Source of the DNA: Erodium maritimum
Lineage: Eukaryota > Streptophyta > Magnoliopsida > Geraniales > Geraniaceae
Assembly (NCBI GenBank): GCA_963921825.1
Contig: OY997594.1
Location: 2,609,001-2,673,000 of the forward strand
DNA length: 64,000 bases
Direction of reading: 5' to 3'
In this document: positions 10,450-52,694 of the stretch, piece by piece
How the letters are laid out: every line of letters begins with the position of its first letter
Numbering within the stretch: position 1 is the stretch's first letter
Position numbers and translations under genes: made by a program
Notes under the pieces: model-generated
Told to the model about the DNA's origin: nothing
The model's input: only the letters and a program-made list of their open reading frames with translations
The model's database searches: none

Positions 10450-12745
10450 ACCTCGTCGTTGGTGGCGTCCTCTAGCAACCTGGAGGTTATTGGCTCTCCT
10501 CACCTTAACTCTCCCTTTCTCCTCCCTTCTTTTAGCTACCTCATTCTCCCTGATCTATGCTTCACCACTTCTTGTCCTGAATTCAACGAAAGTTTTGCGT
10601 TGGGACGGTCTGCGTCGGTCTTTCTCTCTCTGGTAGATCTACCTCTTCTCTGGTAGTTTCATGTCGTTGCTCGAGACAGTGCACCGTCTACGCTCTTTTC
10701 CAGTATATTTGGTTCCCCCGCTCTAGCTCTTATTCTGGCATTTCGTGGAGCGCCCCCTGCACCGTCATCTGCTGCTGAGGTTCAGGAATTTCCGCAACCG
10801 GTCCATGTCTCCCTCACCTACACAAAACTGCCTTCCTTTTGTTTTCAATGTGGGTTGATCGGCCATGTCATCCAAGATTGTGGTCGGGGGATGGTGGGTA
10901 CCCCACGTTTCGACTCCTCTATTTTGGAGTTCCAGAAGGATCGGAATACTGCATCTAAGGGTACAAATCCTCGAGTCAACATCCAGGGTGGGACAGTCGA
11001 TACAGGCTGGAAAATTTTGGTGGTCGGCCAACTCTCTGGTAGCAAGAAAACCGAAGTTTCAGGTCTTCCTAGGCACATAGATAGAACTAGAACTGGAGCT
11101 GGCACTGGAGGAGTGAAGAGGGGGTCTGTTGGTGAATCCCGGGATGATCAGGAGAGGGTTGGTGAGTAGCCTCGTCAGGAGGAATGTTAGGATCCTCTAG
11201 CTTCAGGGACTGGCTCCGGGAGAGGTCCCTGGTTGAAGCCATGCCTCCTACAACTGATGCAGTTCAAATTCGGTCGCTTTGCCCCCCAAATGCAGCGTGT
11301 AGGCACTAGAGCAGGACTTTCGGTTTCGTTTTCCAACCCCCACCTTTCCTTTATATTACCTATATGGCGTCTCAATACCGTTTATAATGGTTATATTATT
11401 AAAAGAGCGCACGAGAGCGCTGCCATGCTCTCGGTGGGTATTGCTTTGGGGATCAAAGGCTCTTCATCAAGAGGGCTCCATCGTCTGGTAAGGGATGTGG
11501 ATATATTGATATTGAATGGTGCGCTCCTCTTCTCATGCGATTAGGGGTTTGCGAATTGGAGGCGGCGAAGATTTACCACTCTGGCAGCCACCATATGTCG
11601 AGCAGCAAGGAACCTGAGGCAGGTCCGGTGGATCTCTTCCGATCGGCCTACCCACCTGTGTTGTCTCGTTCATTCTCTCGATCGCCTGCAAATATAATGG
11701 ATCCGGTAAGGGCGGTGTGGAGTGATGTATCTCAAAGGTTCTCGGTCCGAAGGTCGGGGGAGGTAGTTCTGGTAATCCCTAGAAAGGGAGGACGTAATTT
11801 TCAGGGCGGGAGCTTCCGAGGGAGGTGGACCGTGGAAGAGGAATGGCGGCGTGCTCTGATTTCGCTAGGATCGCCTCCGGCAGACTCGTTTCCGATGATG
11901 GAAGCTCAGAACGCCGTGGGAGGGAGTCCGGCCCGCCAGAGGGATGAAGGACCATGGCGGCGGCGTCTCTTTCGGCCTGGCCCTAGGGTTTCCGAGGTGG
12001 GCCGAGGTTCAGGTTTTGGGTCTTTTGATGGTCGGACTGGGATGCGTAATGTGATGGACCCATATGGTGTTGGGCTCGGTGCGGGCTTGTGCGGTAATCT
12101 AAGGCCTGATCTAGGTCCAATGGAAGTCGAGTTGGTGTTGGACCGGGTCAAAGAGCAGGGCCGGGACAAGGGACACAAGACGGGGCTGGATCGGATCATG
12201 GAAGTCGGACCTGGGTCGGGCCCAATTGGGCATGTAGATGGGTCGGGTCAGCTTCCGGACGGGGGTTCATTTGTAGCGGCGGGGGTCTTCAAGCACCCCC
12301 GCCTCTAGGAATGAGTGCTTGGGGGTCCAAGGAGGGGTTGGTCGGCTGTACCATCTCCCTGGAAAATTGGTGGCAATGGTTCTGCCAACAGTCGACAAGA
12401 TGCTTCCCTACCACTTCGGGGTCAGCAATCCCGAGTTCAGGAGCCCTAAATTTATCAGTCAAGGGAGGACGACGCACACTGACTTACCGGGCGAGTTATC
12501 GGTCCACCACTATAAAGTTTTCACTTGATATGCTCGATCAGCATCTTATGGTTGGAGCATACTGTATCGGTGTCTTTGGATGCTACCGTAGTCCCACCCC
12601 TCCGACCGACCTTATGTCCATGAGCAACATTTCCTATTCAGCACTTGTCTTTCAGATTTATGTTAGTTTCTTGGTTTGTATGGTGTTAGCCGCCTTCGCG
12701 GTCACCAGAATGCTTTAATTAATAATATTATCAGTTCGTTCATAA
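10450..12745 (+). mobile_element. LINE remnant, ORF1 C-terminal part with a CCHC knuckle
   Basis: Around 10820-10865 the plus strand encodes PSFCFQCGLIGHVIQDC, a C-x2-C-x4-H-x4-C zinc knuckle of the kind that follows DUF4283 in plant LINE ORF1. A downstream GESRDDQERVGE/PRQEE stretch matches a second copy at 18880-18970. A 257-codon open frame at 11535-12308 is GC-rich and repetitive in Arg/Gly and has no domain I recognise. The element ends near an A-rich stretch at 12745. It is broken, with no ORF2. Confidence 0.6.
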
Positions 12746-13059
12746 AAAAATTAAAAAGATGTGAACTTTTATGTTTTATCTATATTCTTGTTTAATGACC
12801 AAAAAATATTAATCTTGATGCACTTAATTATAGTTTAATAAAATTACACATATCGTTCAAAAAAATCAAAGAAGTTTTTGCACTTATAAATATGACCAAG
12901 TAGTCACGATGTGACACCAAAAAGCCACACCAAACTAGCAAACAAGTAATGCTTACTATAGTTCCTCATTTCGCATATATATATAGCTTTCATAGTTTCA
13001 CTTGCTTATATCAATACACATATTTGAGGACACATTTCAACTTTTAAGTTACGTTCGAG
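12741..13059 (+). promoter_or_regulatory. presumed promoter of the GA2ox-like gene
   Basis: An alternating TATATATATA lies at 12976-12985, about 75-85 bp before the ATG, the usual spacing for a TATA box with a short leader. The rest is AT-rich. I cannot assign other elements. Confidence 0.5.
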
Positions 13060-15710
13060 ATGTATTGCGAACCACCATTGAAGGAGAGCTACAAGTCCTT
13101 CAAGGAGTCTCATGCACAAGCCAATACTAACGATGTAGCTCGTACGGTCGAGGAACGCGAGCTCGAGCTTCCCCTCATAGACCTAAGCAGCCTGATCCTC
13201 GACCATAACGACGACAACAACAACAACAACAATGACAGAATCAGGTGTATGAAAGAAATAGGGGAAGCCGCGGGGGAGTGGGGATTTTTTCAAGTAGTGA
13301 ATCATGGAGTTCCGGGGGAGGTTCTCGGCGGGATGATCCGGGAGCAAAGGGAAGCGTTCAGGCGGCCGTTCCACGACAAGGCTCGACCGGACTTTCTCTG
13401 CTTGTCTCCCAATAGTTACCGGTGGGGAAACCCTAAGGCTAGTTGTGTGAACCAGTTCTTTTGGTCCGAGGCATTGCATGTGTCCGTTGCTGATGTCTCG
13501 GCCATTAATGACTACAACAGCAACAACACTCTGAGGTAAGACTTAGTGACTATTAAAGTTTTTTTGTCTTTCTTATTAATTTGAGATGTGACATTTTATG
13601 TACCAAAACTTGTTTGTCCAAATCGGTACTCAGACCCGGGTTTGAATCCGAATAATGAATACGGGTTTGAATCACGGTTATGATTCACACGTAGATGTTA
13701 AACCCTGCGCGTAAGTGGGAGTGTTGAAATATATTAGATGACAGAATCAACTAAAAGGTTAAGCTAACACGTGTTTTACGGACAAACCCGAGTATGAGTA
13801 TTGATGTGAAATATTTAAAAGGAGAAACGAGCTCATTGAGAAGAAGATAAAGACGAACCCATTATAGGCATTTTTTTTTTAAATCAAATTTGTCTATAAT
13901 GGGTTCGTATTTATCTTCTTTTGAATGAGCTCATCCCACTTTCTAAATATTTCACATAAAACTTACAATCGGGTTTGTCCGTAAGAACGCGTGCTAGCTT
14001 AACCTTTTAATTGATTTTGTCATCTAATATACCCCTACACTCTCTCTCATATGTAGGGTTTAACATCTATATGTGAATCATAGCAGGATCAGTTATCTTA
14101 GATTTTGCTGATATGGGTCATCTAATATACTTCAATCCTAAAGTTTTGGCATAATATTTCTGTTTTTGGATACGCTCCAGATCGGCCATTGATGAATTTG
14201 CAACAAAAGTTGGGAGTCTTGCAGAAGACATTGCTCAAGTTTTGTCCCAAAACTTGGGAGCTGGATCGAATTTGTTTGGGGAGATGTGCCCTAGAAGAAG
14301 TAGCTATGTCCGAATGAACCGATACCCTCCATGCCCCTTCTCTTCGGAGGTGTTCGGACTGTTGCCCCACACTGGTAGTGACCTCCTCACAATACTCTAT
14401 CAGGACGGGATCGGAGGATTGCAGCTGCTGAAAGACGGTGCATGGATTAATGTCAAACCGAACCCTAACGCTCTCATCGTTAACATCGGTGACATGTTTG
14501 AGGTAACATCTTAACTTTACCTTAAATTTGATTGTTAGTGAAAAATACTAAGGTCATTTTACCTGTTTTTGATGGAAAATCAGATAAAAAGTTAACAATG
14601 GGTACTCTAAATAAATTAATAAAAATTTAGGTACTGAAGTGACACAAAAAGATTTGGGGATAACTCTGGTTCCTAGCCTTGTTGAACGTTTCGTTTTCAC
14701 GTCCTAACTCAGACCAACGTTTCGTTACAGTGCCATACACGAAAGGTTAGAACTTTTACAAAACCTGATATGAACCGTTCAAATTAACGATTTTGTTAAT
14801 AGGGGAAGTGAAAAGTCGAAACTACCCCTCTATTCACGTTAACCTTTCAGCTCCCCATGTCCGTTAAACATGCAATTAGAACACTTAGTATACATATCCA
14901 ACAAATTTTCAGCACTGAATTTCAAAATAATGCATTATTTTGGGAAAGATGAGTTGAAAGGTTAACGTGAACGGAGTTGTAGTTTCGACTTTTCACTTCC
15001 TATGTTAACGAAATCGTTAATTTAAACGGTTCATATCAGGTTTTGTAAAAGTTCCAGCATTTCGTGTATGGAACTGTAACGAAACGTTGGTCTGGGTTAG
15101 GACGTGAAAACGAAACGTTCAAAAATGTTAGGACCCAGAGTTTTCCCAAAGATTTAAATGGTCTAAATAAAATATAAAAGGTTTAACATACCGAAGTAGA
15201 ATTACCCCTTATATTTCTTTTATTTTTATAAATATGTCTGTTGGCAAAGTCAACGGTCGTTTTCCTCTAGTAAGAAAGACATACAACAAAATGCGAGTGA
15301 TTGGGGAGATAAGAAGTCGGGCCCCCGGATAGTCAAGCAAAAGCGGTTAACCAGCAGTGAGGGATGCCGAACAGGCTCCACTATAAACACTCTTATATCG
15401 AGTTATGTTTATTTATTTTATCAATAGAATATCCGTCGCACAAAACGACATGTCTGATGATTAATTATTGTAGGCGTTGAGCAACGGTCAATACAAGAGC
15501 ATAAAACATAGGGTAGTTGCACATAAAGAGGTGGAGAGATTCTCCACAGCTTATTTCCTGTGCCCATCGAAGGACACAGTGATCGAGAGCTGTAGCAACA
15601 ACAAGCCTTCACTGTACCGAAAGTTTAGCTTCCAAGAGTACAAGGATCAAATCCTCAAAGATGTTGAGACCACAGGTGGCAAAGTTGGCCTCTCTAGATT
15701 TCTTCTCTGA
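13060..15710 (+). CDS. GA2ox8-like: C20-gibberellin 2-oxidase-like 2OG-Fe(II) dioxygenase with an HxG iron site
   Basis: Three exons (13060-13535, 14181-14502, 15474-15710) join to 344 residues. Blocks typical of class III GA 2-oxidases are present: ELPLIDLSSLI, EWGFFQVVNHGV, SYRWGNP, FWSEALHV, RMNRYPPCP, LTILYQD, GGLQLLKDGAWINVKPNP, LIVNIGDMFEALSNG, KHRVV, ERFSTAYFLCPS. These enzymes inactivate C20 gibberellin precursors by 2-beta-hydroxylation in the cytosol. The second iron His (H278) and the 2-oxoglutarate pair R288/S290 are present. The first iron motif, normally HTD, reads H222-T-G224 (codon GGT, 14374-14376), so the carboxylate ligand is missing. Introns and the 3' flank are crowded with inverted-repeat elements. 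The frame is otherwise complete. It may be an inactive homologue, a changed enzyme or a base error. Confidence 0.9.
13679..14082. repeat. ~400-bp palindrome of TRIM-like sequence in GA2ox intron 1
   Basis: 13679-13876 is the inverted match of 13887-14082. Paired blocks are GATTCACACGTAGATGTTAA, TTAGATGACAGAATCAAC, GACAAACCCGA and GACGAACCCATTATAG. Its blocks GGGTTTGTCCGTAA, AATGAGCTC and TTTATCTTCTT also occur in the interior of the TRIM at 26245-26555, so this is a head-to-head pair of relatives of that element. Confidence 0.75.
14514..15212. mobile_element. MITE-E remnant interrupted by a MITE-F, in GA2ox intron 2
   Basis: 14514-14656 and 15148-15212 are the two parts of a truncated MITE-E (TTTACCTTAAATTTG, AAAAGATTT, GTAGAATTACCCC). 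Between them MITE-F (14657-15147) has inverted ends GGGATAACTCTGGTTCCTA / GGGAAAACTCTGGGTCCTA (right end inverted) and a near-perfect 9-bp duplication, AAAGATTT(G/A). The insertion is younger than the host element. The MITE-E remnant starts about a dozen bases from the exon 2 donor. Confidence 0.8.
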
Positions 15711-15715
15711 TTAAT

Positions 15716-16102
15716 GGGAAAACTTTGTTTCCTTACCTTTACAAACGTTTCATTATCTGATCCTAACTCAGGTCAACGTTTGGTCTCAATTCCTAACATG
15801 ATAGGTTTGGAATTTCTCAGAAACTATAAAAAACCGTCCAAACTCACGATTCCGTCAACTCGTCGAGCATTGGGTTCAGTTGCTTGAGAACGAGGATAAG
15901 TTCAATGTCGAGGAAGGCACCATGGGTAATATACGACAACAATGACAACACTGGGATGAGTTGACGAAATCGTGAGTTTAGACGGCTTTTATAGTTTCTG
16001 AGAAATGTCAAACCTATTATGTTAGGAATTGAGACCAAACGTTGGCCTGAGTTAGGATCTGATAATGAAACGTCTGTAAAGGTTAGGAAACAAAGTTATC
16101 CC
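15716..16102. mobile_element. MITE-F copy immediately 3' of the GA2ox stop codon
   Basis: Inverted ends GGGAAAACTTTG / GGGATAACTTTG (right end inverted) enclose arms that pair over about 170 bp. It is flanked by a perfect 9-bp duplication CTGATTAAT (15707-15715 and 16103-16111). The left duplication includes the stop codon TGA (15708-15710). This points to a MULE-type element that landed at the end of the coding region, so the transcript's 3' UTR should contain a hairpin. Confidence 0.85.
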
Positions 16103-18169
16103 CTGATTAATCATTATACTGTTTTTTGACGAAAACTATATATAATACTGTTTTCGGGTTACAAATTGAAAATACTTGTGTAAGGGTAAAAATATGTTGT
16201 TCATTTATCGATTGTTGAACGTATTTTTATCAGCTCTGAAATACAATTCTACCCATTGTCGAATATATAATCCAAAATAATTTTGTCAACTCCTAAAATA
16301 ATTGCATAACATCTACAAAGAAATTAATTGGGACAGTGATCCTCAAAAACTAATAGATCAAAATTAATGTTGACTATACGTTTTTAATTTCTTTGAAAAT
16401 AAGATACTTTTTTTGAGCGAATCAACATCAATTTTATTGATAGAGAAATGTACGGAGTACCGAATATATAATTTTAAGATATTTTCAGAGATCCGGATTA
16501 TAGTATGAGACCCCACATACGAGTGTACCAATGCTCGGGATTATAGTAACAAGAGATTAAGTAAAACACATAAAAATATCACATTAACGATGATTATATT
16601 AATCCAGTTGTATATTTAAGGGATTTGACCCTATTCTTGTGAAGAGGTGCGTAGATTGTTTTTCTCATCTCGACTATAGTCATATTGCTTTGTCTGAGTT
16701 GCCCATTAATCCTGCGATAATAACTGTGGGACGAGGGGAGTGTAACGTGGAGAAGGAGATTCTTGACCTGCAGAAAAGAGAAATAGAGCATGTCAACCAT
16801 AAATTGAGAGATGAATCGAGGAATCTCAAATAATATAACGATAACACTATTAGAAAGAGACATCAGGGGATCGTAGGAGAAGATTCACCGTTGAAAACGC
16901 TAGCTGCTATAGTTAGTAGGGTTTCCTCAATCTAAAGAGGATTTTGGAATTAGTCTTATTGTTAATTTATGAAAGTATAAGTTTTTTTCGAGCATAATGG
17001 GAGCTCATATTTATTACAAATAACATAATGAAAGACATAAGGAAGGAGTAAGCATAGTCTCAGGTTTCGTAAGATCCAAGACGCTAATCCTGAAACAATT
17101 AACGATGCTTTGTACAACAACTTTAAATTGATGTAGTGAAACACATAAGAAAGACATATAAACGATGACTATCCTATGTGTAAAATTAAAGGATCCGACC
17201 ATATCTGTATGAATACACGCATCGTGCTTTTCTCGTGACTCAACCCGAGAGTATCAGATGAGGTCTCGACGAGAAGGATGAGTAAGATCAAAGAGCGAGT
17301 CGTTGATCGGCGTCCCGCTATCATCAGAACACGTGTCTAGCACTCCTGGTCTCTATCTCGTTGATGTCGCTCTTTCCCAAACACATGATAGATGATCCCT
17401 CATATGGTCGTCCACCAACACCTCTGGCCTCCACAATCCACCGGACAACGGTTCCATAGTAGCTCCGTCACTTACCCCTGCACAAGAGATAAAAAGACGA
17501 CCAAACCGACCCAAAAAATAAGGGATTTGTCTATGATAACCCTCTAGAGATGAACATACCATATATGATGAAAAGAAAGAGACAAAACGATCCATAAATA
17601 GCATTGGGTCAGAGAAGGAGAAGTAGAAGAAGAAGAGTCGTCCCAAACCCCCAGGTTCTAGAAGATCAGAGTCAATGACTGAAGGATGACGACTTAATTA
17701 ATTCAGTGAACTAAGCCATTTTCATAGCTTGTGTTATTGATAACGGGGATTTGTCAAAGACAACCGTGACTAGCGAAGTTTTGGAGCTTATGCTAGTACA
17801 CTTGAGAGATAAAAATTATAAGTTATTAATTAGCTTTGGCATGTAATATTTGTTTTCATTTTGTTATTATTTGTATCCAAACAATTATTTTTTCAAAAAT
17901 AAATAATTATGATTTTCACCTCAATAATTAATTAGAATTAAGAATTCCACCAAATTACTTGAGTAGTACATCAAGAAGAGCTCTGTTAGGGTTTGCGAAC
18001 TATCAATCCTAGTTGTCGTAACTATTAACATGGAATCTGGATGGTGCATCGGCGACGATCCGTAATTACTTGTTGCGATGATGTTCGCACTCTCCGTGTT
18101 AGCCTCCCATGTCTCGAGCGGGGACACGGCTGAAGATTTAGTCGGGAAAAATCAGACGAATCAGGCGAG
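16103..18169. other. intergenic with a diverged duplication
   Basis: 16560-16650 and 17137-17220 are diverged copies (AAACACATAA, AACGATGA, AAGGGAT..GACC/AAGGATCCGACC). The minus strand at 17350-17650 has an open frame of ~97 codons without a recognised domain. No host gene is seen. Confidence 0.35.
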
Positions 18170-30032: not shown

Positions 30033-33000
30033 ATGAAGAAGAATGGCTATGGCGGTGACGGACCTGTTGAGGTTCAGCGCTCCAACGGGTTCATTCCAGC
30101 TTCGTTTCGAGCCTTCTCTAGCTATATGAGGGTTGTTTCTTCTGGTGCTTCCACTGTTGCACGCTCTGCTGCTTCTGTAGCTTCCTCTATTGTGGATAGA
30201 GATGGTGATCCTGGCCATGATCAGGTAAGGGCTTGAGAAGTATTTGGGGTTTTTATGTTTGGGTTTTGATGCCTTGAAGCTGTGTTTTTAAGCTGTAAAT
30301 GACTTTGATTGTTAAGTTATGTTTGTGAGCAATGACATTGTAAAAGGTAGTTGATTGAGAGCCTATTATAGCATTGTCTAATTTTAGGCTCTTGTGTAAT
30401 TTGTGGATCATCCAAAGTGTGTTTTGACATTGAAATGCCAAAATAGAAAGCATAATATCTTGAGAGCACATTTTGAATACCTTCTATATGAAGTAGAAAG
30501 CATGTTGTCGAATAGCTTATATATGAGAAGAAAAGTGATAGTTACTTTTTGGTGTTAGTGGGAACTCTTTTGACATGGATATAGAAAGCATGTTATCATG
30601 CAAGGTGGTTTATATAAATGTAGTTCAGTCCGCCCGGGGACATCTTTGCAGAGTGATAGATTAGTTCAAGTTTTCTTAATCTATCCAATTAGTAGCTGGT
30701 TAATCGAATATATATTTGGCTATAAAATTAGATTTGGTTTGTTTTACATTATGCCGTATTTAAAGTTATTTTTCTTCCATGTTGGTAACAAGGAGGAGTT
30801 TTATTTGTGAGAGAACCTACCATGTATAACTGTGACTTTGTTTGCCATTCATGACTGCAGAACTTCTTAGATTTATGCGATGGTTTGCCACATATTATGC
30901 TAATCAATCTTCTTCACATTGGTTATAGTTTAATTGTGTTTTTGTATCACCGCCTAAAGGTAATGGGCTTAGCTGGGTTAGTTGATGGGGCATTATTTTC
31001 TTCAAGATTAATGGTTTGGTGCTCACTCTTCTGTTGGCTGTATGAGAAACTTGTTTTGCCCTAGTACGTTTGTTCATGCTTTGAAGTTAATCATAGGAGT
31101 ATCTTTATTGACTCACCCTTGGCGATCTTTGATTTTCAAAAACACATTGTATAGGTGAGGGATTATCAGTAACACACTGTCACCTTTCGTTTATTCATCA
31201 AGAATCTACTGAAAAGGTTGGTTTTTGATCAGGAACACACTGAAAAGGTGACAGTGTGTTCCTGATAAAAAACCATCGCCTATTCAGTGTGAATCCGTGG
31301 GTTTTTGATGAATAACGAAAGGTGACCATATGTTATTAATAACCCCTCACCTATAGTGGGGTTCCTAAAATTCAAAGGTCGTCGAGGGGGTGTAAATAAT
31401 GTTTTCCCTTAACTATAAACTAAGCGATGTTCCTTGTTTTCAAACACAGTTGCTCTGGGCTGGGTATGACACGGTGGAGTGTGAAGGCAATACAGCCGGG
31501 CGAGTTCTCTTGCTAGGGTATCGATCTGGTTTCCAAGTGTGGGATGTTGAAGAAGCAAACAGTGTCCGCCAACTGGTATCCAGGCATGACGGTCCTGTTT
31601 CCTTTATGCAAATGCTACCAAAACCGGTCACATTGAAGACATCTACGGACAAGTTTTCTGACAACCGTCCACTGCTTGCCGTTTGTGCTGATGGGTCTTT
31701 TTCTGGGGGTTTCAATGGCCAAGTTGCTCCTGGTAATGGGTTCCATGACCCAGTGAATGTCGGTTTTTCACCAACCACTGTTTGGTTTTATTCCTTGAGA
31801 ACTCGGTCTTATGTGCATGTTCTGAAGTTCAGATCAGTTGTTTATTCAGTAAGGTGCAGCTCTAGAGTGGTTGCTGTCTTACAAGCAACTCAGGTAATAT
31901 GTTGCTTCCTTTATTTTTGGGGATAATTGCAAAAAAGTACCCTGAAGTATTGACTTCTTGCAAGTTGTATCCCTCTAGTATGATAATTCCAATACGGTGC
32001 CTTGAACTTGTCTTTTTGGTGCACTTTGTGCAGATTTGTTTAAAAAATTTACCCTCAAAATCTGAAATCTACAAAAAGGTAAGAAAAGCAAAAAATTCGT
32101 GGGAGATGAAAATTCTATATTTTTTGTTTTTATTAACGTATTGTTTTCTAAATTTAATTTTTCGTGGGTAAAATCATCAATTTGGAACAAATTTACACAA
32201 AGTGAAACAAGAAGACAAGTTCAAGGCACTTTTTTTGCAATTATCATAGAAGAGAGCTACAACTTGCCCAAAGTCAATACATCGGGGTACTTTTTTGCAA
32301 TTACCCCTTATTTTTTGCACATCCCTTTTCTTGAGTGATCATATTGATTAATATTTTTATGTAACGGCTTTGACAGGTACACTGTTTCGACTCATCGACA
32401 TTGGAGAGGGAGTATAATATTCTCACAAACCCGATTGTCATGAGTGGTCTTGGTTCTGGTGGAATAGGTTATGGACCTCTTGCTGTGGGTTCTAGGTGGG
32501 TTGCTTATAGTGGAAGTTCAGTTGTGGTTTCCAACTCTGACCATGTAAGTCCACAACCTCTACCGCCATCTTCAAGCTTTCCCGGGTTTTCTTCAAACGG
32601 GAGTCTTGTGGCTCGCTATGCGAAAGAATCAAGTAAGCAACTTGGTGCTGGGGTTGTGACCTTGGGTGATATGGGATATAAGAAGCTTTCCAGATACTGC
32701 TCTGAGTTCTTACCCGATAGTAATACCTCTCCGCAATCGGCTACTCTTGGCTTGAAAGGCAACGGAGTTGTTAATGGCCTCGTGCCTGATACAGACAGTA
32801 TCGGAATGGTAAATTTCTTATTGGGATTATTGCAAATAAGTACCCTGATGTAATAATTGCAAAAAAGTGCCTTTAACTTGTCTTCTTGTTGCACTTTGTG
32901 TAAATCTGTTTCAAAATGACGATTTTACCGTAGGAAATTTAAAAATAATAAGTAAAAAACAAAAAAAATATAGAACGTTCTTCCTCTTTGTACCGTACAA

Positions 33001-35396
33001 GAAGGAAGAAAATTAAGGGAGATGAAACTTTTGTTTTTCCTATTATTTTTAGATTTCATATTTCAAGGGTAAAACCATCAATTTAAACAAATTTGCATAA
33101 AATGCAACAAAAAGACAAGTTCAAGGCATCATAGAAGAGGGCTACTACTTGTAAAAAGTCAATACCTTGAGGTTTTGCAATTATGCCTTTTTATTTCATG
33201 TTTATTTTCATATGCTACTGCAATTATTTACTTTATCTGCCTCCAACTGGTGTTTCGTTGTGAACTTTGGTCTCTCAGGTGATTGTCAGAGATATTATTA
33301 GTAAAAGCGTCATTGCTCAGTTTAAGGCACACAAGAGTCCTATTTCAGCATTATGCTTTGATTCTAGCGGGACGCTTTTAGTGACAGCTTCAGTTCAGGG
33401 CCATAACATAAATGTTTTCAAGATAGTGCCTATACTCTCTGCTTCTGAGGGTGGTACGTCTTGTGCACATCTATACAGGCTTCAGCGTGGCTTCACCAAT
33501 GCAGTAAGACCATATTTTTCACTTTTGTCAATTGCAAAAAAGTACCTTGGGGTATTCACTTTTTGCAAGCTGTAGCCCTCTTCTTTGATAATTGCATAAA
33601 CGTGCCATTAACTTTACTTTTAGTGATGGCCTTTGTGCATCCGGGCCACGAACTTTCCCTTTGTGCCTAAAGTGAATACCATGGGGTACTTTTTTTTTTT
33701 GCAATCATCCCTTGTCTAATCCCCTTATACGAATCATCGCTTCAGGTTATACAGGACATCAGTTTTAGCGATGACAGTAGCTGGATCACGATCAGTTCCT
33801 CAAGAGGGACCTGCCATCTTTTTGCTATAAACCCTTTAGGCGGGACGGTCAACTTGCAGCAGCCCGCCAGAAGTCGTGGGTCAGCCCAACAGGGCCTTTG
33901 TGCATCTGGGCCGCCAGTCACGCTTTCTGTTGTTAGCCGAATAAGGAATGGAAACAGTGGCTGGAAAGGTACTGTGAGTGGTGCTGCAATGGCTGCAACC
34001 GGTAGGGCAGGTTCTCTTCCAGTGGCCATTGCTTCATCTTTTCTCAACCCTACAAGTAACAAGTTCTATGTAGATGGTGGTTCCTTGAGAGCCAAGTATC
34101 ATCTCTTGGTTTACTCTCCTGGTTGTGTGATACAATACGCATTGACGGTTGCACCGAGATCGAGTAATGTGTATGAACCCGCTACGGAGTGTGACGGGAG
34201 ATTGGTGGTGGAGGCAATCAGGAAGTGGAGTATATGCCAGAAACAGAACCGAGTTGAACGGGATGATGTTGATATTTATGGCGACAATGGGAGTTATGGC
34301 GGCAAAAAAGTACATCCCGAAGTAACGAATGAGGTAATAGCCGGAGGCGGAGTCATGAAATCGAAGATGAGTCCTGAGGAAGAACGGTATCTGTTTATTT
34401 CAGAAGCTGAGCTGCAGATGCATCAACCTCGGGTTCCATTGTGGGCCAAATCCGAGGTCTCTCCCTCTCTCTCTCTCTTACTTGTTTTCTGAAGGAAACA
34501 TTTTTTCTTTGATTTCATGTTGTTGCGCCATTGTTTTGTCAGATATACTTCCAGTCTATGACGATGGAGAGAATCAAAATGGACGTTGATGATGCTTCAG
34601 GAGGAGAAACCGAAATTGAGGGGATTTCAGCGTGCACGATTGAAGCAAGGCCAAGAGGCTTAGTTCCAGTTTTGGATGATCTTCAGATTCCCAAACTTGA
34701 GGAAGAAAGGTGTGCCTATGTTCTCTGCATGATGTCAAATTTCGTCAGTAAAATGAGGGGATAATTGCAAAAAAGTACCATGATTAATTGTCTTTTTGCA
34801 ACTTGTAGCCCTCCTCTTCGACAACGGCAAAAAAATGTCCAGAACTTGTCTTTTTTGTTGCACTTTGTACAGATTTGTTTCAAATGACGATTATGGTATT
34901 CTTTTTTTGCAATTAGCAAAGAAGAGGGCTACAAGTTGCAAAAAGTGAACACCTCGGGGTACATTTTCGCAATTATCCCTAAAATAAGTATATTAACTTG
35001 GTTTACTTATTTCCTTTATCACTCAGGGTTCCTGCTGGGGATGTAACTGCAGTTGCAGATGGGTATTCTGTGCAGCATTCTAAGTCCGGGCTGTATGAGA
35101 ACGGCCGGCTTTCATGCAGGAGTAGCTCTGGCTCTCTGAACTGCATGACTGACACTGGCTATGCACTGTCCCAGGCTCTCAATCATTTTGAAGAGACTAT
35201 CGAGGATGGTGGTCCAATGGCTATAGGAACAAAGGGTTCTGTGAATAATACCGAAGGTTCTAAACCAGCTAGTCAGTCAGAGATTGTAAATAATAGAGAT
35301 AGCTTAACGATGGAGGCTCAACCCGACTGCATAAATAACAATGAAGAGATGAAAACGGGAAAACATTTTGAAGAAGAGCGTGATGAGTTTGATTAA
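30033..35396 (+). CDS. ATG18F: autophagy-related protein 18f (PROPPIN WD40 + BCAS3)
   Basis: Seven exons (30033-30224, 31450-31893, 32377-32808, 33279-33503, 33746-34456, 34543-34709, 35027-35396) join in frame to 846 residues. The N-terminus has a Ser/Ala-rich helix. A seven-bladed beta-propeller follows, with YRSGFQVWDVEEANSVR, SVRCSSRVVAV, KSPISALCFDSSGTLLVTAS and GHNINVFKI. LQRG (424-427) occupies the phosphoinositide-binding FRRG position. The BCAS3 region follows (ASGPPVTLSVVSRIRNG, EAELQMHQPRVPLWAKSE), and the acidic tail ends DEFD. ATG18 proteins bind PI3P/PI(3,5)P2 and act in autophagosome formation. The stretch between the propeller and BCAS3 is shorter than in relatives I recall. 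Introns 2, 3, 4 and 6 each carry a MITE-A, and intron 1 a MITE-C. The exon 5 donor is an uncommon GTCTCT. Convergent with the bHLH gene. Confidence 0.93.
31150..31408. mobile_element. MITE-C copy in ATG18f intron 1
   Basis: Inverted TTATCAGTAACACACTGTCACC / TGTTATTAATAACCCCTCACC-type blocks with TTATTCATCAA. The right end reads AATAATGTTTTCCCTT, about 40 bp before the exon 2 acceptor. Confidence 0.7.
31920..32306. mobile_element. MITE-A copy in ATG18f intron 2
   Basis: Ends GGGATAATTGCAAAAAAGTA and inverted TTTTTTGCAATTACCCC. Flanked by TTATTTTTG / TTATTTTTTG. Confidence 0.8.
32823..33187. mobile_element. MITE-A copy in ATG18f intron 3
   Basis: Left end GGGATTATTGCAAATAAGTA, about 14 bp after the exon 3 donor. 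Right end TTTTGCAATTATGCC. Confidence 0.75.
33528..33711. mobile_element. short MITE-A derivative in ATG18f intron 4
   Basis: Left end AATTGCAAAAAAGTACCTTG, right end TTTTGCAATCATCCC. The interior is shorter than in full copies. Confidence 0.7.
34758..34979. mobile_element. MITE-A copy in ATG18f intron 6
   Basis: Ends GGGATAATTGC / GCAATTATCCC with a 9-bp duplication TAAAATGAG / TAAAATAAG (34749-34757, 34980-34988), one mismatch. This supports MULE-type insertion. Confidence 0.85.
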
Positions 35397-37055: not shown

Positions 37056-40000
37056 TTAAGCAACAGGAGGGCGAAGAACGTGATCCTGTGAGGTATCCAC
37101 AGCAGCAGGAGGCATGAACTGCCACATCGCCACTCCCGGATAACCAAGGAAAGGAACCAGCTTGTTGCCAGGAGCTTGACCCTGAGCAGCAAAAGCAGCA
37201 GGAATTGCAGGCTGTGGAGGAATGAAGCTTGGTTGTAGACTCATGGTCTTCAATTGCTGCTCCAGTTTATCTTTCTCGGCCTTCAGCCTCTGCTTTTCAT
37301 CTCGAAGCTCGTTCTTCTCCGCCTAACATGAACCAAGACAGCTTATTGTAACTCGTCTTTGAAAAACACCTATTGCTATCTATATTTGAACATTGTAGCA
37401 CCTTCTGGATAATGTAATGCAAGGGCAAACGACAAAAAATAGGGATGATTGCAAAAAAGTACCCTGGGTATTTATTTTTTGCAACTTGTGGCCCTCTTCA
37501 TTGATAATCGTAAGGAATTACCCTGAACTTGTCTTTTTGTTGCATTTGTATGGAGATGACAATTTTACCCTTCCAATTTAGATTTTAAAAAATAATAATT
37601 AAATTCTAAATTTCATTAACCTTAATTTCCTTCCTCTTTGTACCATACAAAAAGTAAGAAATCTAAGGAATATGAAAATCTAGATTTTATGTTTTTCAAA
37701 TTTATATATCGAAGGGTAAACTATCATTTTGAAACAAATTTATAGGAAGTGCAACAAAAAGACAAGATCAGGGCACTTTTATATAATTATCAAAGAAGAG
37801 GGCTACAAGTTGCAAAAAGGGAGTACCTTAGGGTATTTTTTTGCAATTATCCCCCAAAATTATTGAACATATAACCTTCAACTCTTTAATCTTCTCCTGC
37901 AGGCCCGAATTAGAGTCCTTCAACTTTTGGGCTTCGCCTCGTAATTCAGTGACCATCCGTACAGCATCTATCAGAATAGCAGACTTGTCTGTCTTTGGTG
38001 GCCTTCCTGGCTCCAGGATGGAGCCCAATTCTACAAACCTAGTGATTAAACCAATTTTAGAATGTGCACCAAAAAAAAAGGTTGTCTTTATGGGGAGAGA
38101 GAGAGGGAGAGGGAGAGAGAGAGAGAGAGAGTACTTCTCATTTAGCCTATCCCTCCGCTGTTTCTCCCTACATGCTTTAGAGCTAGAAGCATTGCATGAC
38201 TCAGATCTAACCCTGCAGCAGGAAATATGAGATAGGGAATTGATACAAGATTCTCCAAGTAGTAACTTGAAAATAAACATTAGGTACAGAAAAAAAAACA
38301 AGTGATAATTGCAAAGAAGTACACTGGAGTGATCACTTTTTGCAACTTGTACCCTTTTTCTTTGATAACTGCAAAAAAGTGCTCCAAACGGACCGAACTT
38401 ATCTTTTTGTTGCACTTTATAAATTTGTTTTAAAATGACAATTTTACCCTTCGAAATTTAAAATTTAAAAATAATAATTAAACATAAAATCCAAATTTTC
38501 ATATCGCATAAATTTCTTACTCCTTGTATGGTACAAAGAGGAAGAAAATTGATAGATATGAAAATTTGGATTTTTTTATTTTTTTACTTATTATTTTTTA
38601 AAATCTAAATAATAAGGGTAAGATCATCATTTTTACACAAATTACAACAAAAAAGACAAGTTCAGGATACTTCTTTGCAATTATGAAAGAAGAGGGTTAC
38701 AAGTTGCAAAATATGAATACCTCGAGGTACTTTTTTGCAATCATTCCTAAAAACAATTCATAAAGGCTTACCATCTCAGTTAAGGACTAAAGACTTCCTG
38801 AGATTGATAAGCATTAAAGGTATAAAGGCTCACCATTAATCATAGGCCATAAAGCTCAATGAGTGGGCTTCATTCTCTCTTACAACCAACAAAATTGAAG
38901 AAGAAATTATTACCTCTTTTTGGAGCCAGTTTCCTTGGAGACATCCGAATTCCCAAATGAGCCATCAACTTCCACACTAACAAGAGAACACCATACAAAA
39001 AGATTAGGAGAAAAAACAATGAAATGAACCATACAAGAATTTAAAAATGTAGCCTATCAGAAAATAGAGTTCAAACAAAGTAATAATATAGCATATAAGT
39101 TTCTGCGGTACACACAGGGAGACCATGTTTCACGAAAATGAGAAAAATCTTACGACAAATATCCCTATTTAAATGCATCACGTGTTAACTTATCTTAACA
39201 AAAATACAAAATGTAATAGTGTATGTGAATATAACAAACATATACACACAAGGCCACTGTCAGCAAAAAGAGCACTAAAAGGAAACCCACATAACCATCT
39301 TTAAAATCTGTTATCATCTACAGGCTATAATCAGATATTACAACTAGAACCAAAACAAGTGTTTTGTATCAAACCAAAGGCACGAGCATGCCAACATTAT
39401 CATCTAAAACACCCCAATACATAACTCATGACTTAAAAGTTCATATGGATCCAAGACAGCTAACTATGACAGCACATAACACATTCTATCTACACTGAAT
39501 TGAAATTTCAGCTGTGACACGCCGATGAATCAAAAAACAATCCTTCTATAACCTATAGGGAGCTCAGCCAATTATGCATGGTAGGTTACGGCAGAATAGA
39601 TTGGAAAATGGCTTGTTAGGTCTGCTTCATGAGTTTGAGCTATACTACTTATTTTTCGACAGCACTGAGTTTAAGGTTCAATGAAAGCAGTAGGCTAAGG
39701 TAGAAAATGGTATAAGCTAAGATAAGGTCTACACCACACCTAGGTTCCTCTACCTAAGGTATAAGTGAAACAAAGATGAAGTCTATGCTCAAAAAGTGAT
39801 AATTTTATTCAATGCCCCTTTCATTTTCAAAACTAGGATTGTTTGTTGAAGAGTATAATCCTAGGCTGAAGGTATGAGATAATCCCAGATTCTATGGGAT
39901 TTAAACAGATTTGCAAAACTCAAAACAAAAACAAATCTAATTCAAAATTACTTGACTTGCACAACACTTGTAATCCTCTGACAGATTTGGTTATGAGATC

Positions 40001-52010: not shown

Positions 52011-52602
52011 CTAATCTTCATCAGCTCCGGCGGACTTCGAAGCTCCGGCCTTCTTCGGCAAGAGCAGATTGTGGATGTTCGGCATCACACCACCGTTCGC
52101 AATCGTCACGTCGCCGAGAAGCTTGCTCAGCTCCTCGTCGTTCCTCACCGCGAGCTGGATGTGCCTCGGCACGATCCGAGTCTTCTTATTGTCCCTCGCC
52201 GCGTTACCGGCCAACTCCAGAACCTGGCACAAACCCAAAAACCCCCAATTCAGAAAAATTCAAAACCCTAAATTCCCAAGGAGTTCGAAATCGAAGATAC
52301 CCAAAAAACCCCCAATTCAGAAAAATCCAAAACCCTGAATTCCCAAGGAGTTCGAATTCGAAGATTTGAGAGATCAGAGAGAAGGAGATGAGGATTGAGA
52401 TCGGAGATGTTACCTCGGCGGCGAGGTATTCGAGGACGGCGGCGAGGTAGACGGGGGCTCCGGCGCCGACTCGTTCGGCGTACTTGCCGGCCTTGAGGAA
52501 ACGGGCGATACGGCCGACGGGGAACTGGAGGCCGGCCTTGCTGCTCCGGGAAGTGGCCTTCTTGGAGGCGCCTGATCCTAGGGTTTTGCCACGTCCCGCC
52601 AT
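52011..52602 (-). CDS. H2A: histone H2A (canonical plant type)
   Basis: Two exons (52414-52602, 52011-52223) join to 133 residues. The core is fully conserved: [41 protein letters not shown], then [58 protein letters not shown]. The tail is short and ends SAGADED. It lacks the SQEF motif of H2A.X, the SPKK repeats of H2A.W and the H2A.Z signature, so it is replication-type H2A. The position of the single intron (after LAAE) matches plant H2A genes. The intron holds a 67-bp tandem duplication. Closest in place and sequence to Arabidopsis HTA1/RAT5. Confidence 0.97.
52233..52366. repeat. tandem duplication (~67 bp x 2) in the H2A intron
   Basis: Both units contain CCCCCAATTCAGAAAAAT, AAAACCCT(A/G)AATTCCCAAG and GAGTTCGAA(A/T)TCGAAGAT. 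Few differences, so a recent duplication. Confidence 0.9.
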
Positions 52603-52686
52603 TGATGAGGGTGCTGAAGGAGGATAGAGAGCGAAATGGTGGATCGGAGAGACGACCGGAGATGAGGAATTGGAGCTTTGATTCGG

Positions 52687-52694
52687 TTTTTATA
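52687..52694 (-). promoter_or_regulatory. TATA box of the H2A gene
   Basis: TATAAAAA on the minus strand, about 85-90 bp before the ATG. A reverse CCAAT (ATTGG) lies about 30 bp further upstream. Confidence 0.65.

Follow-up and report, generated by a model that had tools for sequence, protein, structure and literature searches.

A gibberellin 2-oxidase-like gene of Erodium maritimum with an intact reading frame and glycine at the position of the iron-ligand aspartate

Can a plant 2-oxoglutarate (2OG) oxygenase that has lost one of its iron ligands still be of use to its owner, or does an otherwise intact gene of this kind record the first step of gene death? The question is raised by a gibberellin (GA) 2-oxidase-like gene on the plus strand of a 64,000 nt stretch of the Erodium maritimum genome (C7:2609001-2673000, hereafter the window, with positions counted from its first nucleotide), in which the HxD iron motif reads H-T-G. 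The HxD carboxylate is one of the three protein ligands of Fe(II) in this superfamily, and a glycine in its place opens the site. The explanation that we favour, with a probability of roughly 0.57, is that a once normal C20-type GA 2-oxidase was recently deprived of its iron carboxylate and now has little or no activity.

The gene consists of three exons, which join into an open frame of 344 residues (1035-base coding sequence) with GT..AG splice borders throughout (donors GTAAGA and GTAACA, acceptors ending in CCAG and GTAG). Exon 1 (13060..13535) encodes residues 1–158 and two bases of codon 159, and contains the DIOX_N domain and the SYRWGNP block; it was delimited by its open reading frame (ORF), the GT donor at 13536 and the match to Pfam PF14226, and the four closest paralogues can be read with the same three-exon layout. 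Exon 2 (14181..14502), bounded by an AG acceptor and a GT donor, supplies the last base of codon 159 and residues 160–266 with the H-x-D site, and exon 3 (15474..15710), preceded by an AG acceptor, encodes residues 267–344 and ends with the stop codon TGA at 15708–15710. Positions 14365–14385 read CCCCACACTGGTAGTGACCTC, which translates as P-H-T-G-S-D-L (residues 221–227), so that the HxG proposed by the original prediction in place of HxD is indeed what codon 224 (14374..14376, GGT) encodes. The first iron His is retained at codon 222 (CAC, 14368..14370), as are the second iron His at codon 278 (CAT, 15507..15509) and the 2OG carboxylate site R-F-S at codons 288–290 (15537..15545, with Arg288 at 15537 and Ser290 at 15543). 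Codon 226 (GAC, 14380..14382) encodes an Asp two residues past the lost ligand that is common to the four close paralogues (HTDSD); the Asp at this position is not known to act as a ligand in this enzyme family. Compared with a functional GA 2-oxidase, the 2OG-binding RxS is thus present and the HxD..H iron triad is incomplete, and HTG together with His278 conforms to the HxG/A..H pattern of 2OG halogenases.

The Asp-to-Gly change is real in this assembly. A single full-length copy of the gene turned up, and a search of the assembly with a 24-base pattern allowing GGT or GAT and up to two mismatches gave one match, which carried GGT, and no GAT version; a second haplotype or duplicate with GAT was rejected on these grounds. 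Misalignment at the site was likewise rejected, as residues 221–228 are gap-free in every aligned row shown. Since a single base decides between Gly and Asp, a wrong base in the assembly, or an allele peculiar to the plant that was sequenced, in a species that otherwise carries GAT, would suffice to explain the observation; we think this improbable, given that the surrounding coding frame has no other signs of error and that one copy and one allele were found in the assembly.

To place the change among its relatives, we searched the genome (763 Mb, 40 contigs) in six frames with the window protein, which gave 122 matches, with 117 of 302 candidates scored, so the family may be larger. After exclusion of the window's own loci and of duplicate copies, 105 places at 102 loci covered site 224, and all 105 have Asp at 224 and His at 222; eight of them have a stop inside the aligned stretch, reflecting either intron read-through or a broken gene. 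In the columns derived from the pairwise alignments to the window protein, in which divergent regions are under-represented and exon 1 is almost absent, the window gene deviates at four (165, 213, 224 and 283) of the 33 in which 30 or more places align and agreement reaches 75%, and at 224 alone of the 19 in which it reaches 90%. Gly224 is therefore unique among the compared relatives in this genome and lies beyond background variation. The retention of all 18 others of these 19 highly conserved columns, and of H278, R288 and S290, bears out the statement that all other family blocks had been kept, and the comparison with paralogues that had been recommended is answered by Asp throughout, the four closest all reading H-T-D-S-D.

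These four nearest relatives, at C2:27.49, C1:91.77, C2:74.17 and C3:71.28 Mb, can each be read as an intact three-exon gene; two of them have GAC at codon 224 and the other two GAT, and they are 47–52% identical to the window protein over the aligned length, with the C2:27.49 Mb paralogue reaching 60% across exon 2. The second intron is 5.45 kb in the C1 paralogue (C1:91766500-91775000) versus 76–312 bases in the other three. A further C20-GA2ox-like copy at 92.09 Mb (C1:92088500-92095500) is decayed: a stop interrupts exon 1 and the exon 2 sequence is divided between frames, yet its PHTDSD is still legible.

Identification as a GA 2-oxidase-like gene was upheld. The Pfam matches (2OG-FeII_Oxy PF03171, 4.6e-31; DIOX_N PF14226, 9.4e-15) place it in the 2OG-Fe(II) oxygenases. 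The gene resembles the C20 gibberellin 2-oxidases of the GA2ox7/GA2ox8 type in both domains, in the SYRWG, NRYPPCP and GGLQL blocks, the second iron His and RxS, and in exon borders shared with the paralogues, and differs in having HTGSD where they have HTDSD. Such enzymes normally use Fe(II), 2-oxoglutarate and O2 to hydroxylate GA precursors at the 2-beta position. In a protein tree, the window gene and the four paralogues grouped against two outgroup rows (100/100), with the exact fork left open, and of three codon trees tried the best kept the window gene separate from the two pairs of paralogues, with pairing to either of the nearest two being worse by 19 and 22 log-likelihood (lnL) units. 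When presumed sequences of Arabidopsis GA2ox7 and GA2ox8 were added, the window gene fell with GA2ox7, whereas GA2ox8 was joined by the four paralogues (97/95); this is a lead only, and the C20-GA2ox label partly rests on it. If the pairing is right, the window gene would be the only GA2ox7-type gene among the genome matches scored, and one that has lost its Asp.

We next consider how the gene has evolved, using codon analysis of 291 codons in five genes, after removal of columns with gaps and of the first 36 columns of the alignment. A single ratio of nonsynonymous to synonymous substitution rates (dN/dS, omega) of 0.159 for all branches fitted adequately; allowing the window branch its own omega (0.142, versus 0.163 elsewhere) gained only 0.07 lnL units, whereas fixing it at 1 was worse by 10.35 lnL units, and by 4.2 lnL units when exon 2 alone (109 codons) was used. 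The approximate 95% range for the window branch, obtained by interpolation, is 0.075–0.27, and all these omega figures are rough, as dS on this branch is about 1.2–1.3 and thus near saturation. The dN/dS comparison suggested alongside the original prediction therefore places the long window branch under ordinary purifying selection, which agrees with either recent loss or continued function, and not with an old dead gene. An old pseudogene was rejected accordingly, with omega = 1 excluded on the branch and both frame and splice borders intact: no stop codons, frameshifts or broken splice sites were found in the 344-residue frame with its GT-AG borders. Relaxed selection, as a shift of omega towards 1, was not found on the window branch either, although a recent loss would leave no such signal. 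Among columns invariant in the four paralogues, the window gene deviates at 29/144, the C1:91.77 Mb paralogue at 17/132 and the other three at 1–3 of 116–118; since the 29 deviations accompany the longest tip branch (1.35, versus 1.00 for the C1 paralogue), we do not claim a clear excess, and accelerated evolution was set aside.

The age of the change was bounded by calculating how long an intact frame with intact splice borders would survive under neutrality. The probability of survival is 0.28–0.56 at 0.01 substitutions per site, and falls to 0.175 without and 0.022 with a frameshift rate at 0.03, and to 0.055 and 0.002, respectively, at 0.05, the frameshift rate behind the lower figures being an assumption. 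A recent null allele would thus look like this gene. The combination of purifying selection and low neutral survival confines a function-ending change to the final few per cent of the branch, and a neutral phase can only have been recent; an earlier change would mean that the gene was retained afterwards.

On this basis, the course of events in a recent loss may be pictured as follows. An ancestor that was probably a C20-type gibberellin 2-oxidase acquired Gly at codon 224, by which the iron carboxylate ligand was removed; His222 and His278 alone would leave the iron site weakened and the reaction lost or nearly lost; and the loss would be recent enough for stops and frameshifts not yet to have accumulated, with the original function presumably covered by the four intact paralogues. 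Those four HTDSD genes of the same class mean that redundancy is present. A transposon-like element also adjoins the stop codon: this inverted-repeat element of 387 bp (15716..16102), with outer arms that are 93% complementary and at least 40 other copies at 93–95% identity, is flanked by perfect 9-bp target duplications (CTGATTAAT, at 15707–15715 and 16103–16111), of which the left one contains the stop codon, so that the stop is preserved and transposon sequence begins right after it. Such insertions are common in plants and are no proof of inactivity.

Experimental precedents exist for each outcome. Ten plant 2OG oxygenases, AtGA2ox3 among them, were mutated from Asp to Gly or Ala, and alternative products were obtained from F3H and H6H alone (PMC12346261). 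Eight of the ten mutants, that of AtGA2ox3 included, gave no halogenation product, the mutants were noted to be hard to express and purify, and flavonol synthase (FLS) D230G had no detectable activity (PMC12346261); by analogy, these results would favour inactivation in the window gene as well. The same study reports that F3H D219G and H6H D219A still preferred hydroxylation, with halogenation as a side reaction (PMC12346261), and human AspH and the Asp-to-Gly variant of FIH, whose iron site has two His and a Gly in the ligand position, can still hydroxylate despite HxG (PMC10947486). The latter two are non-plant enzymes, likened here by description and not by sequence, and AspH hydroxylates Asp/Asn in EGF-like domains. 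The expectation that carboxylate loss normally kills hydroxylation was therefore worded too strongly in view of AspH and FIH, while it holds for FLS D230G. Among the titles listed in searches of one open-access library, none reports an iron-ligand Asp change in a GA2ox, and a search on HxG and halogenases led to the DAH (dechloroacutumine halogenase) and AspH papers; the GA2ox searches did turn up functionally attenuated rice OsGA2ox7 and the pseudogene OsGA2ox10, which are similar in that GA2ox copies weaken while others dominate, and different in that the four OsGA2ox7 variants tied to weak activity are at residues other than the iron ligand (PMC8319247).

Several observations weigh against a recent loss of function. 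No further lesion accompanies the change: there is no stop or frameshift, the splice borders are good, and omega on the window branch is not above that of the other branches. A lone lesion at the ligand, and one to Gly, would also be expected of a selected change. Any point on a branch of dS ~1.2–1.3 could mark the change, neutral decay being compatible with no more than its final few hundredths, and the ability of AspH and the FIH variant to hydroxylate suggests, by analogy, that activity can outlast the carboxylate. The name GA 2-oxidase is moreover not proven, as the best of 71 matches among sequences of solved structures is At5g05600 (6lsv, 1.1e-44) and not rice GA2ox3 (6ku3, 6.8e-31), which we take to be a C19-type enzyme.

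A second possibility is a protein that continues to hydroxylate, more slowly or with changed affinity for 2OG and Fe; the space beside Gly could then admit a water molecule as the third ligand, an arrangement also supposed for AspH and the FIH variant. The normal constraint, the retention of all other catalytic residues and the preference of the F3H and H6H mutants for hydroxylation are in its favour, but the inactivity of FLS D230G, the lack of an alternative product from the AtGA2ox3 mutant and the invariant Asp in all other genomic places read make it rather unlikely. A pseudoenzyme kept for binding, which would hold gibberellin precursors or partner other GA oxidases without turnover, would account for the intact frame, the other conserved residues and purifying selection across the branch; however, the constraint is a mean for the whole branch, a large part of which may predate the change, and we regard this as unlikely too, a little more so than residual hydroxylation. 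We accordingly rank a recent, probably complete loss before a residual two-His hydroxylase, and the latter before a binding-only protein, with odds that are judgements and not computed values. The outcomes first listed for this gene (dead, binding-only or altered in its reaction) were a fair selection.

The last of these had been raised with reference to SyrB2-type halogenases and to the dechloroacutumine halogenase (DAH) of Menispermum, and it could take the form of a halogenase or other anion-transferring enzyme. SyrB2 has Gly or Ala at the carboxylate place. This feature is shared by bacterial halogenases of the SyrB2/WelO5 type (PMC7170919; WelO5 in PMC12346261), which act on other substrates and are likened here by description and not by sequence. 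DAH of Menispermum canadense and its neighbour DAH-like are closer, as plant 2OG oxygenases with HxG..H, and the Asp-to-Gly change is what separates the motif of DAH from that of its flavonol synthase ancestor (PMC12346261); the window gene has the same change and likewise retains the second His and RxS. However, DAH descends from flavonol synthase whereas the window gene is a GA2ox relative, DAH is argued to have needed many further changes, the DAH-like HxG neighbour is a pseudogene, and AtGA2ox3 did not halogenate after loss of its Asp (PMC12346261). No biosynthetic cluster was apparent by eye among the 18 window ORFs of at least 150 residues, for which no family search was made. The halogenase analogy is thus weak here, with only F3H and H6H of the ten mutants giving alternative products, and such an activity is very improbable.

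Recent loss remains the explanation that we prefer, and the gene would in that case show gene death at its very beginning, with the same change as in DAH in a different subfamily. Alternatively, and more tentatively, a second, independent plant lineage may have fixed Asp-to-Gly in a 2OG oxygenase, here a GA 2-oxidase relative, that selection still maintains, whether it oxidises gibberellins with a two-His site, binds them as a pseudoenzyme or carries out altered chemistry, and this intact gene would then be a natural test of a useful two-His plant oxygenase. A further implication is that the window gene could be annotated, on similarity alone, as a working GA 2-oxidase.

The coding frame is free of insertions, despite transposon-like elements in both introns and at the stop codon. 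Intron 1 contains a palindromic element of 404 bases (13679..14082) with outer arms of 97 nt that are 82% complementary, and intron 2 a palindromic repeat element of about 491 bp (about 14657..15147) with long inverted arms and at least 39 other copies at 92–95% identity, with 40 of 2644 candidates scored. By eye, the ends of the intron 2 element resemble those of the element at the stop codon, and the two possibly belong to one superfamily. A string search located a TATA-like stretch on the plus strand (12975..12986), 85 bases 5′ of the ATG, which is no more than suggestive. Just upstream of the gene (10657–12308) are long ORFs with a zinc-knuckle-like stretch, which appear retroelement-like by eye. 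Elsewhere in the window, also judged by eye, ORFs resemble an ATG18-type WD protein (31396–34492) and, on the minus strand, a bHLH factor (37828–38457) and histone H2A (52204–52689).
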